From contig JAOSJK010000012.1 in assembly GCA_027494135.1 (NCBI GenBank), positions 796,795 through 860,794 on the forward strand: DNA of 64,000 nucleotides, read 5' to 3'. The notes under the pieces were generated by a model that saw only the letters and a list, made by a program, of their open reading frames with translations, made no database searches and was not told the DNA's origin. Source of the stretch: Acidimicrobiia bacterium (GTDB lineage Bacteria > Actinomycetota > Acidimicrobiia > IMCC26256 > PALSA-610). The stretch's first letter is position 1; each line of letters begins with the position of its first letter. Position numbers and translations under genes: made by a program. This document shows positions 58,366 through 63,825 of this stretch, piece by piece.

Positions 58366-59727
58366 CGGCTCTAGGTCGGTGCCGATCAGGACGTCGCCGA
58401 ACCCGGCGTCGACCAGCAGCCCGAACACTGCCTGCGCGCCCTCGCAGCCGACCCTCTTCGTAGGCGAGCATCGGGGGCCAGATCGGCGAGGTCGAACTCG
58501 GCACCGGGGTCAGTGCCCGCAGCGATCGCCTCGAGCGCATCGACGTACGGCTGCGAGACGGCGGTGTGGTCCACCCGAGCCCCTCGGCCGTGTAGACGAG
58601 CAGGAAGAACTGCATGCTGCCGCAACCGCGCCGGCCGACGGGTCGTCCGGCTCGACGACGAGATCGCCGTCGGGAGAGGGCTTCCCATCACACCATGTGG
58701 GCAGGAAGACCTCGATCCGGTCTCGCAGCTCGGTGGATCCGGGAGTGCCGGTGCCCGACCATGCGAGGAGGTCGTCGCGATACTGCGTCAGGTCCGATAG
58801 TGCGTCTGCGGGGAAGCCGGCCGTGTGCTCCGCGGCCTCGACCAGGCGGCCGAAGCCGTCCTGCAACCGGGCGATGTAGGCCTCGGTGTCGTCGGCGCCG
58901 CTCGGCCCGCCGGCTACGGTCGGCTCAACCGCGGCCCACACCGTGCAGAAGTCGCCCGACGAGGCGTCATCGGGGATCGTCCCGTCGAGAGTGGCCGCAG
59001 GCACGGGAACCACAGGCCCGGGCACCACTACGTGGGGCGTCTGCTCGTCGGGCCACGACGGCCCCGAGATCTCCTCGGAGACCGAGACCTGCGGAGGGGC
59101 GAGCGGGTTGCCGCAGGCGCAGCGCGTGCGCGGCACGCCCGTCGCGCCGACGAGGACCGCTGTGCCGGCCTGCAACACCGACTGGAACGGCGTGGCGCGT
59201 CCGCCGGAGAACCCGTGGTTGGTGACGCGGGTGTCGTGCAGGAGAACCAGCGGCTCGAGGGTAGCCACGTACTCGGCGATCTCGTCGGTGGCGATGCCCA
59301 GCGCACCCGCCCAGGCGTCGGCCTCGTCGGCGTTCGCCTCGAGGAACTCCACGAGAGCGCCGGAGTCGCAGCGGCTTGCCTCACCCGTCCCGCCGTAGAG
59401 CCCTGGAGCAGTACCGACGCGCAGAGTCGCGCCACCCGCAACGTCGGCCGACGCGGGCAGGGCAGCCACCTCGTCGGTGAAGTCTCCGTCACCCATGGCC
59501 GTGGTGAACGGGTCGGAGCCCACGTCGCCGGCCGCTTCGCGAACGACGTCGGCGGCACCGCCCTGCGCGTCGGCCGTGTCCGCCGTCGTGTCCGGCGGGG
59601 CGGCTGCCCCCTCGCCGTCGCCACAGGCGCCGGCCACGAGGGCGAACGCCGCCACGGCGGCGACGATCCTGGCTGCCTGTCGGACTCGGCTCCCGGTTGC
59701 AGATCGGTTCTGGCTGAACATCCTCAT
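58363..59727 (-). CDS. DUF6777-type lipoprotein, multiple frameshifts near the 3' end
   Basis: ATG at 59727 after AAGGAGAGACG. The signal peptide ends in lipobox LVAGACG near residue 29, then an acidic linker. The main domain has LYGGTGEASRCDSGALVEFLE, VLLHDTRVTNHGFSGGRATPFQSVLQAGTAVLVG (given here in parts) and TRCACGNPLAPP, the pattern I recall for DUF6777. A helical domain follows (FCTVWAAVEP, RLQDGFGRLVEAAEHT). After PSAGAVAAA the frame must shift three or four times within about 200 bases to give MQFFLLVYTAEGLG, SQPYVDALEAIAAG, PMLAYEEGR and EGAQAVFGLLVDAGFGDVLI, with a stop at 58363. Extracytoplasmic; function unknown. Confidence 0.78.
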
Positions 59728-59918
59728 CGTCTCTCCTTGGGCTCGTGCTCCTGACACCTGCTCGACGGAGGAGCCCTTCGCGATCCGACACTTCGCCCGA
59801 AGATTCCCTGCGCAGTCACGACCGCCGCGCAGAGGAACCACTCCAGTGAATCGGCGGTAAGGGCGCTCACCTGACGCAGCTCCCTGTCGATATCATCCAG
59901 ATCACCGCGAATCGCCAT
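59724..59918 (-). CDS. Small protein coupled to the DUF6777-type gene
   Basis: 64 residues: MAIRGDLDDIDRELRQVSAL, then a short hydrophobic ADSLEWFLCAAVVTAQG, then a basic tail. Its stop overlaps the next ATG (ATGA), a common sign of translational coupling. No family is recognised. The ATGA overlap and the amphipathic helix support it modestly. Confidence 0.4.
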   Translation of the reverse strand: MAIRGDLDDIDRELRQVSALTADSLEWFLCAAVVTAQGIFGRSVGSRRAPPSSRCQEHEPKERR

Positions 59919-60020
59919 GACTCGCGCGCATCGGACAACGGGTCACCGACTCCGCAACCGACGCCTCCTCCGTTCCGATGCTCCGCGTCGATAGGCTCGC
60001 CTCGAGGGAACACGTCGGGG

Positions 60021-61666
60021 GTGGCAGTGCGGGAGGAATACGTAGCTCTGCTGCATCTGGCCGACGGACGGGCCGCCCACCATGCCCGGCTCACCCTGGC
60101 GCATGGTTGCGCCGGAGTCACGGCGACCTGCCCCAAGGATCGGACCGCGACCGCGATTCATGGCGCCCCTCCGAGTCGGTCGCGATCCGCTGGACCACGC
60201 TCGCCGACGATGCCGGCGACTTCCTCCACGATCTCGTCATCGCGTCACCGGACCCCGTCGACGAGACCCTTCGCAAGCGCCTCTCGATCACCGTCGGCGC
60301 CGACGGGGCCAACGGCTGGGCGCTCATACGACAGGTCGCCGAGCCGATCACGACTCTGCTCGTCGAGGTGGCGGAGAGCCCTCCGCAACGCCCGGAGGTC
60401 GTCGCGACGTTGCTTGACCACTGCCCGGCCTTCGATGCCGGCAGACCTCTCCGCAGGACGGCGACCAGGTTCGGCCCGGCCGACGTCGCCGAGCTCGCCG
60501 CATACGTGATGGAAGCGCCGTCGCGGATGCTGCCCGTCCTGGTCCTCGCCGACCCTGTTCCGACACGCTCCGCGTTCGATCCCGATTCGCTCGCCGACCT
60601 CCTGGTCGGGGTCGCGCACGTGGTCCGGGTAGCGGCCGATGCCCTCGACGAGATGCGGATGCAGTTCGGTGCTCCGTTCGCCGTCGAAGCCGGGGGTGCC
60701 CGTCTCTACTGGCCGAAGTGGCGCTCCGACGACTCCCCGTCCCGCCATCCGAGATGGTCGAGCGAGGATCTTGCAGCAGGTGGCGCCCGACCCGTGTTCG
60801 GCAGGTCGATCGCATCCAAGCTCTTCGTGGTCGCGGCGACGCACGTAGCCGAGCCGCCCCTCAGGAATCGACTCCGCTCCGCGCAGGCGCAGGCGCAGCG
60901 CGAGGAACGCGACGCCCGGGTCCGAGAGCAGCTCGTCACACTGGAGCAGACCTCCACGGCCGACGACGGACCTGGTCTGCGGGCCACGCGCGGCGACGTC
61001 GCCACAGCAACGGCCGACGACGCTGACGGTGCCCGCGCCCGCGAGACGGCCCTGCGCCACGAGGCCGAACGTCTGCGGAACGAGATCGGGATACTGCGCG
61101 GCGACCTCGACATGGTGCACGACGACTACGACGCCGCAGTCGACGAGCTCGGCGATCTGGAGCGTCAGCTCGCGACCGTCACGGAGGAGCGCGACCGCCT
61201 CTTCGCCGGCTTGGTGAACCCCGGAGCCCCCGGCTCCGACCCGCGCGATCCGAAGAGCCTCGCGGACGCGGTGGAGATGGCACGCATGCACTCGACCGAC
61301 ACGATCTACCTGCCGGACGCGCTCGCCTCCTCCCGGCGCTCCCAGGTGCGCAACCCACGCAAGGCCCTGGAGACGCTCATGACACTCGACAGGGTCGCAC
61401 GCCGGTTCCGGGCCCGACAGGTCCGGGGGTCGCTCGACCAGGAGATGCGCGCCGCGGGTCTCCACTGGTCGGGCGGGATCAGCGAGACAGCCGAACAGCT
61501 TCACGCGACGACCTACGCAGTGCGCCATCGAGGCGAGTACGTGATGCTCGGCCCCCACCTACGCATCGGCAAGAGCCTGCGCGCCTACTGCCACGTCGAC
61601 AAGGAGGAGCGCCTCATCGTCGTCGGCCACGTGGGCGAGCACCTACCGGGCAAGCGGGACCGCTGA
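60021..61666 (+). CDS. Coiled-coil protein paired with an HNH nuclease, one frameshift
   Basis: GTG at 60021 (VAVREEYVALLHLADGRAA); one base is missing near 60165, after which the frame reads RWTTLADDAGDFLHDLVI to the end. The corrected protein is about 548 residues. An N-terminal globular part has a hydrophobic-repeat LVGVAHVVRVAADALDEMRMQ. A coiled coil follows near residues 350-430 (ETALRHEAERLRNEIGILRG, then DELGDLERQLATVTEERDRL). A C-terminal domain contains SLADAVEMARMHSTDTIYLP and ERLIVVGHVGEHLPGKRD, which resembles the C-terminus of uncharacterised proteins I have seen in genomic islands. The HNH gene starts 42 bases later. A role in nucleic-acid defence or repair is conjecture. Confidence 0.75.
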
Positions 61667-61707
61667 GCCCCGACGCGCATCGCGCCCTGGTCCGCTAGAA
61701 CCTCCAC

Positions 61708-62868
61708 GTGCATCCCGACGGTCTCGACCCCCAGCCCCGAGTGCCGAGACCACAGACGCTGTCTTCGCGGAACGGCTCCTCCAGGTCATCGACGAGGGCC
61801 GGCGGACCGCGACGTACAAGCTCGCACTGCTGACCGCGTTGATCGATGCGTGCGCCGCACACGCCGGCGACGACGGCCGGGCGCCGCAGGTCCTCCGCAC
61901 GCGCACCGTCGCACGGCACGTGCTGCGCATCTACCTGCCGCAGGTGCGCAGCTATGCGGGCTCCACCGGTGACCTGATGAACCTGCGGCAGATCACGATG
62001 AAGGAGTCGACGGTGGTGACGGCGGTCCTGCGGCTCCACATCATCGGGGCGGAGCGCGGATGCCGCAACGCCTCCGAGATCGAGCACCGGTTACCGGCCG
62101 AGTACGAGCGCTGTCTCGACGAGGTGGAGCGGACGTTCGCGAGGTACCCGCTCAGGCTCCTGCAGGTCGTCGGCAGGAGTCGCGGCCTTTCCTGTACGAG
62201 ATCGACTGGGAGGAGTCGGTGAGCCTGGCCGCGCTGCACGCCCCCGGCGGCGGTGAGATCAGGTTCCGTCCCGGGGCGGGCGACCGGCTGCTCCGCCTCG
62301 CCCCGCTGCTGCGCCCGCTGATAGAGCTGCACTGGACACGGATGGTCGCGCGCATCAACCACATCGCCACCGAGGACGAGCGCCTGCGCTCACACCTCTT
62401 CGGCGCCGAGCGCGCGGCGTTCCCCGAGGCACTCCGGTCCGGCCTGGCCGACCTCCAGGACGGCGCCTGCTTCTACTGCAGAGACCGCCTGACCCTGCGC
62501 ACGCAGGTCGACCACTTCGTGCCGTGGTCGCGCTGGCCCAACGACGCGATCGAGAACCTCGTGCTCGCCGACTCCTGCAACTCCTCGAAGAGCGACTACC
62601 TGCCCGGGCTCGAGCACGTGGACAACTGGGCGCGACGCCTCGCCGAGAGCGCCGGGGATCTGGCCGGCATCGCGGCCACGGCGCGGTGGGAGAGCGACCC
62701 GGCGCGGCCCTGGCTCTCGCCCGGGCCTGCTACGCCCATCTGCCCGCAGGCACTCCCCTGTGGCTCGGCAGCGACGAGTTCGCGGATCACGACGCTGTCA
62801 GGATCGCCGCACGCCTCGCCGACCTCCCCGGCTCCACTAGACGCAGCGGGACCTCGCTGTCTCGCTGA
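61708..62868 (+). CDS. HNH endonuclease-domain protein, three apparent frameshifts
   Basis: Frames join as follows. GTG at 61708 gives a short start; after a shift near 61745, VFAERLLQVIDEGRRTATYK runs to RTFARYPLRLLQVVG. After one near 62175 comes RPFLYEIDWEESVSLAAL, and after one near 62705 the end WLGSDEFADHDAVRIAARLA at 62868. Each equals one missing base. The HNH core is ACFYCRDRLTLRTQVDHFVPWSR and IENLVLADSCNSSKSDYLPG, quoted in parts: CxxC zinc or structural pair, DH catalytic pair, N and K at the usual spacing. About 386 residues. Together with the upstream coiled-coil protein it forms a two-gene module. Confidence 0.8.
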
Positions 62869-63174: not shown

Positions 63175-63825
63175 GTGAGGCACCGAACCAAGCTGGCTGC
63201 GGCCGGCCTGTCACTGCTGCTCTTCGCTGCCGCCGGATGCGGAGGCGACGACGACTCCGACGCCGCGGACGAGACGGTCGCGACGACGGCTGCAGACGAC
63301 TCCGACGCGGCCGACGGCGGCGACACGACCGAACCATCCGACGACACCTCCGACGACACCACCGATGACGCCACCGGTGACACGGCCGACGACGACGCCG
63401 GCGACACCGGTGACGCTCTCTCGGAGGATGAGATCCGGACTCTCTGCGAGAGCTACGCGTCCGTAGGGGTCGACGTCTGCGTAGACGCCGGCGGTCCGTC
63501 GAACGTCCCGTTCGACATCACGGTCGGCGACGTGCGTGCCGAGCTGGTGCTCTTCGTCGATGATGCGTACCGGACCGGCCTGCTCACCATCGACAACCAG
63601 GGTGCCGAGCCCGTCTGTGACGCAGAGGTGACGGCCATCGAGGAGACGAACGGTGCCGAGATGTTCGCCCTCGTGGAGCCCGCCGACGACCCGTCGTCGA
63701 CCTGCGCACCGCCGAACTTCAGCTACAACGTGACCTTCCCCAGCGATCTCGTCCTGTCACCGGGCGACTTCTTCTCGCTGCACCTCGACGGTGCCGAGGT
63801 GGGGGGCTTCACGGAGATCGGCTAG
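63175..63825 (+). CDS. Secreted lipoprotein with Asp/Thr-rich linker
   Basis: 216 residues from a GTG after GGGAGGAACGAC. The signal peptide has LSLLLFAAAGCGG with lipobox AAGC near residue 22. A linker of about 60 residues, rich in Asp, Thr and Ser, follows. The folded part begins LSEDEIRTLCESYASVGVDV and has three Cys (CESY, CVDAGG, CDAEV, with a fourth in STCAPPN), likely two disulfides. A beta-sandwich-like tail FNVTFPSDLVLSPGDF-type segment closes it. The strong hairpin at 63842 follows. Extracytoplasmic; function unknown. Confidence 0.88.
   Translation: MRHRTKLAAAGLSLLLFAAAGCGGDDDSDAADETVATTAADDSDAADGGDTTEPSDDTSDDTTDDATGDTADDDAGDTGDALSEDEIRTLCESYASVGVDVCVDAGGPSNVPFDITVGDVRAELVLFVDDAYRTGLLTIDNQGAEPVCDAEVTAIEETNGAEMFALVEPADDPSSTCAPPNFSYNVTFPSDLVLSPGDFFSLHLDGAEVGGFTEIG

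Follow-up and report, generated by a model that had tools for sequence, protein, structure and literature searches.

A paper that discusses HEC-04 expands HEC as Hma-embedded candidates and states that the class is confirmed as conferring phage resistance (PMC12111858), Hma itself (helicase, methylase, ATPase) coming from PADLOC (PMC8565338); embedding in Hma gave the class its name and is not required of each member. Menshen is a multi-gene system, for which a DUF262 gene and a predicted OLD nuclease are mentioned (PMC10952713). Our window (a stretch of 64,000 nucleotides from an Acidimicrobiia bacterium) carries two adjacent genes, A and B, of which the first belongs to a family already catalogued (HEC-07) and the second to one that is widespread but uncharacterised, with no model beyond the HNH motif. 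An earlier note on this DNA described a long coiled-coil protein whose C-terminal domain is distinct, followed 42 bases on by an HNH gene on the same strand, and all of this is present (the coiled coil as a prediction). We now consider that A and B are probably two independent single-gene defence-type proteins, placed side by side by chance of insertion or shuffling. The features are:

60021–61666, plus strand: gene A, HEC-07 family protein by sequence, about 548 residues (PADLOC HEC-07 profile PDLC04161, E 2.8e-33; alignment of relatives)
60158–61663, plus strand: unbroken part of gene A, taken for comparisons (alignment)
61240–61663, plus strand: C-terminal domain of A, ending ...RAYCHVDKEERLIVVGHVGEHLPGKRDR (profile match, alignment)
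61709–62868, plus strand: gene B, HNH nuclease of about 375 residues, read across three frames, with either GTG 61709 or 61740 as its uncertain start
61755–62182, plus strand: N-terminal part of B, DAVFAERLLQVIDEGRRTATYKLALLTALIDA..., outside Pfam (profile searches, alignment)
62180–62736, plus strand: central part of B, which carries the HNH motif (profile match, motif check)
62720–62868, plus strand: C-terminal end of B, LARACYAHLPAGTPLWLGSDEF..., read in a third frame (alignment)

Gene A starts at GTG 60021 and has one frameshift near 60150, with the rest in the frame of the ORF 59978–61666. Alignment supports both sides of the break: upstream, A opens with VREEYVALLHLADG..., similar to VRRTYACVLELADP... 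in relative L212, and downstream, DSWRPSESVAIRW runs on like DQWVPEPHARVSW. The protein opens with an N-terminal domain (about 290 residues), continues in a predicted coiled coil and closes with a C-terminal domain. PDLC04161 matches residues 134–557 (about 420 residues; E 2.8e-33, or 3.5e-31 in the genome search), and three further HEC-07 profiles match at E 3.4e-10 or better; by these profiles A belongs, as a divergent member, to HEC-07, a candidate defence family of PADLOC, although the earlier note could match the locus to no named defence system. The coiled coil matches no SMC family above the curated cut-off, so that describing A as SMC-like is not supported; against Pfam and NCBIfam the whole protein has zero matches above cut-off, profile searches give no ATPase match, and a PDB profile search returned just coiled-coil and chance matches. 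The C-terminal domain is common to HEC-07 members and NsnC (E 3e-7), which we take to be PADLOC's name for a Menshen component. A model of this domain from two sequences reached a pLDDT of 52.5, and a resemblance to RelE-like toxins was considered from its sequence pattern only.

Matches to the HEC-07 profile were found in 21 of the 396 genomes sampled from the phylum and 16 of the 345 from the class, and in none of 13 genomes of the same family. A itself forms a deep branch, sister to a same-order group (25–29% identity). These nearest relatives (L212–L217) keep a conserved chromosomal order: three of the loci have an SRPBCC gene upstream and four have an RraA-like gene downstream (both names read from the sequences by eye, with no profile result). 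No nuclease stands beside these relatives in that order. L212:1216-3243, L214:7537-10567 and L217:7858-9927 exemplify the arrangement (SRPBCC-like upstream, RraA-like downstream in most), a fixed order that is odd for a defence gene. HEC-07 relatives on Streptomyces-type plasmids, annotated as hypothetical proteins, have no adjoining nuclease partner. Sequence searches with A found no relatives in genome contigs, nor did searches of viral contigs with alignment A2 (made from A), L036 and L033.

The same C-terminal domain is found behind other N-termini, as in G043, where it follows a nucleoside-deoxyribosyltransferase-like part and an ATP-cone. Such reuse suggests that it may be a reusable effector or binding module; in A, the large N-terminal domain and a coiled coil, which could mediate self-association, precede this small conserved domain, and A would act as a solo sensor or effector. 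The deoxyribosyltransferase-like fusions (L049:8488-10365 and L038:8346-9743, with the ATP-cone also present in L049) look like a nucleotide-handling defence protein; an HD-domain gene follows the fusion gene in L049.

This distribution bears on a different reading of A, as a vertically inherited chromosomal protein with a non-defence cellular role, leaving only B as a mobile restriction-type nuclease. The SRPBCC – A – RraA-like order kept in three to five genomes of the nearest same-order relatives favours it, as does the fact that the HEC-07 label is a family resemblance only, but A is patchy (about 5% of genomes, with the 13 same-family genomes lacking it), its relatives occur on plasmids and PADLOC matches it to both HEC-07 and NsnC. 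We consider such a cellular role unlikely, and keep to A as a separate defence-type protein.

Gene B is spread over three frames, broken near 62185, near 62720 and probably once more close to the start codon; for searching and aligning, the frames were joined only as protein. All HNH residues fall in a single frame, at CFYC (62468–62479), VDHF (containing DH; 62507–62518) and ENLVLADSCNSSKSD (N...N...K; 62552–62596), all within the match to HNH_4 (score 31.2 against a cut-off of 22) and invariant in the alignment. The earlier note's claim of intact CxxC, DH and N...K residues is thus confirmed. A and B are more than chance reading frames, since the HEC-07 match covers about 420 residues and B aligns with homologues at 35–58% identity over its whole length. 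The N-terminal part (235 residues) is unannotated, and Pfam, NCBIfam and PADLOC find only the HNH motif in the B family. A model of homologue L153 (mean pLDDT 93) matched only HNH regions in PDB and viral libraries (mostly Cas9 in PDB), none below E 0.001; the N-terminal part is predicted to be mostly helical, and its helix–helix–strand–helix start appears winged-helix-like, from inspection of the secondary structure only. It would select or grip DNA, with the Cas9-like HNH domain, judging from its intact residues, cutting or nicking it, making B a stand-alone restriction-type HNH endonuclease.

Members of the B family align full-length at 30–58% identity; nearly invariant are the HNH residues and the N-terminal G..T.TYK, YW.Q and LRQ. 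Record titles place the family in at least seven phyla (Actinomycetota, Myxococcota, Acidobacteriota, Planctomycetota, Pseudomonadota, Gemmatimonadota, Chloroflexota and others). A single-protein query found it in 21 of the 396 phylum-sample genomes, and 14 of the 345 class-sample genomes also have it; in one genome collection 213 B-encoding loci were found and 80 kept. Thirteen plasmids carry it; annotated phages gave no match, and viral contigs gave short HNH-region matches only. The window's own branch has 11 members, 52–58% identical to its B, with variable neighbours that in several cases include NERD, HNH_2 or methyltransferase genes. An apparent 958-residue fusion at L158 was rejected, its N-terminal part being covered by a long frame on the opposite strand that is RecC-like by eye.

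Elsewhere this nuclease has recurrent company. Of 96 loci, 35 have a HIT-family gene directly upstream of the B homologue on the same strand, and each of the 35 keeps HxHxH intact; nearly all of these genes overlap the conserved start of the homologue or end within about 25 bases of it. The coupling tracks the B tree, requiring 14 changes on it where 500 shuffles averaged 27 and never fell below 19; neither the window's branch nor the larger group that surrounds it shows the coupling. The literature searched gives no published name for a pair of HIT-family protein and HNH nuclease. The coupled loci span several phyla, and one pair, in Aromatoleum aromaticum EbN1, is WP_041647985.1 + WP_049780415.1. 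HIT and B-type HNH pairs can be seen at L049:11143-12969, L098:7500-9077, L176:7657-9029 (Aromatoleum aromaticum EbN1 plasmid 2) and L179:7568-9035.

Restriction genes are the other recurrent neighbours. Within 6 kb of B homologues, 18 of 100 loci have an HNH_2 restriction enzyme, nine NERD, eight a DUF3427 PLD-helicase that the scoring puts among type IV restriction enzymes, and three a SAM methyltransferase. Across 21 B-bearing genomes, three of the six HNH_2 enzymes lie about 1.2 kb or less from B and two of the five type IV genes about 4 kb or less, proximities whose chance expectation in genomes of 3–5 Mb is well under 1% each. BREX genes come after B in two Acinetobacter plasmids, and at L081 B is some 3 kb from a Wadjet JetC homologue. 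Because restriction neighbours recur, joined at times by BREX or Wadjet genes, a defence or restriction setting of the B family is well supported, and a defence function may be proposed for it. B is probably a DNA-degrading accessory of restriction or defence loci, since the same nuclease is elsewhere coupled translationally to HIT genes or stands beside methyltransferase and restriction genes. The suggestion of a defence candidate in this window therefore survives for each gene separately, A through HEC-07 and B through a family found beside restriction and at times BREX or Wadjet genes, but not for a module of the two.

Individual loci add detail. In the Acinetobacter plasmids (L178:7974-16939 and L181:5403-12849) the B-type HNH gene directly precedes the WYL, DUF1819, DUF1788 and brxC genes of BREX, and in L181 a SAM methyltransferase gene overlaps the start of B. 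At L121:3276-9164 and L115:7944-12213 a DUF3427 PLD-helicase (type IV restriction-like) adjoins B with overlapping reading frames; L121 has a PLD-type gene and a HIT gene between helicase and B, suggesting one operon.

The shared strand, the 42-base gap and a search of the A–B region that detected no terminator-like site mean that A and B may be co-transcribed. These same features favour a rare lineage-specific system in which A senses infection and activates nuclease B, replacing the HIT protein of other branches; the B family does have alternative coupled upstream partners (HIT, SAM methyltransferase) and swaps them, and G043 has relatives of both genes within 2 kb. Against this, each gene is present in about 4–5% of sampled genomes and their co-occurrence is at chance level (window genome excluded, one genome observed against 1.01 expected in the phylum sample and none against 0.57 in the class sample, both samples being sparse near the window's species). 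Nor were the two ever adjacent at other loci, of which about 35 for HEC-07 and about 100 for B were fetched with flanks of about 9 kb at most, shorter where contigs ended. Outside the window, G043 is the only fetched locus with relatives of both (L049, of which L096 is a duplicate), and HD and HIT genes lie in the roughly 2 kb that separates the two; a match to A at L081/L154 was rejected as coiled coil only. Around B genes of the window's branch (L086, L153, L161, L087, L157, L160, L163, L168, L166 and L159) no A homologue was seen, and same-order and same-class relatives of A or B occur without the other gene. Weakening the chance reading, the window genome is a MAG only 77.5% complete that has no close relative with either gene. 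We regard a dedicated A–B system as quite unlikely, and as very unlikely the broader proposal that B is an undescribed partner-swapping defence nuclease (winged-helix-like plus Cas9-like HNH) that forms a HIT–HNH two-gene system in other branches and has HEC-07 as its activating partner here. With A in HEC-07 and B in a family that has other partners elsewhere, their pairing is probably a chance neighbourhood; the two-gene module of the earlier note, which was to fall if the genes did not co-occur elsewhere, is accordingly abandoned.

The state of the reading frames invites one more account, that A and B are decaying pseudogenes in a degraded island. Frameshifts are indeed there (one in A, two in B with the probable third near its start), several breaks within 2.8 kb, and a possible truncated signal-peptide frame lies behind B. 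Yet the core gene RNase J in the same contig (56213–57965, minus strand) is similarly split over three frames, and B keeps every HNH residue; decay of this kind is highly improbable. Assembly indels or errors are the most likely cause of the A and B breaks, and the simplest, given that RNase J is affected in the same way. The supposed signal-peptide stump, MRSAIRLLGAGAASLTLLLLPAVASREARPRPFSARQ..., is readable on the minus strand from about 62967 but shows no sign of a broken gene, and may be a chance reading frame. The pair opposes its neighbour only on the left (58.5–59.8 kb, minus strand), whereas the next gene on the right (63175–63825) is on the plus strand; among 21 genomes searched, that right-hand gene was found in the window genome only. 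An inserted island finds no support in composition: tetranucleotide usage is unremarkable, at the 75th percentile, and GC (0.707; 96th percentile) lies only a little above the median of 0.684. The left flank (58510–59742, minus strand) is a multi-copy DUF6777 gene, matched three times in this genome and four times in G412.

Set beside described systems, A has the same arrangement as HEC-07 (N-terminal domain, then coiled coil, then C-terminal domain), but is only 15–29% identical to the other members found and has no adjoining Hma system: the neighbours of A and B, within the window and over about 11 kb downstream, are RNase J, the DUF6777 protein, short lipoproteins and a UDP-GlcNAc 2-epimerase. 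Its last 100 residues resemble NsnC, the remainder of which it does not match, and no other Menshen gene adjoins it, the neighbouring B being an HNH protein without a Menshen match. In its C-terminal half B finds its best matches in Cas9, PtuB of Septu and PDC-M01B, with which it shares HNH fold and catalytic residues, but these matches span just 50–90 or so residues, and B has none of the other parts of Cas9 or PtuB; the PtuB match (E 3.6e-5) is to the HNH motif only, and no PtuA-type (ABC-type) ATPase was seen beside B. As for the HIT–HNH pairs, the window's branch of B is without the HIT gene; the HIT-coupled homologues are about 35–40% identical to the window's B. With the false two-gene system struck off, this undescribed pair, a nuclease family repeatedly coupled to a HIT gene (nucleotide hydrolase or transferase) and to restriction loci, is the more interesting lead.
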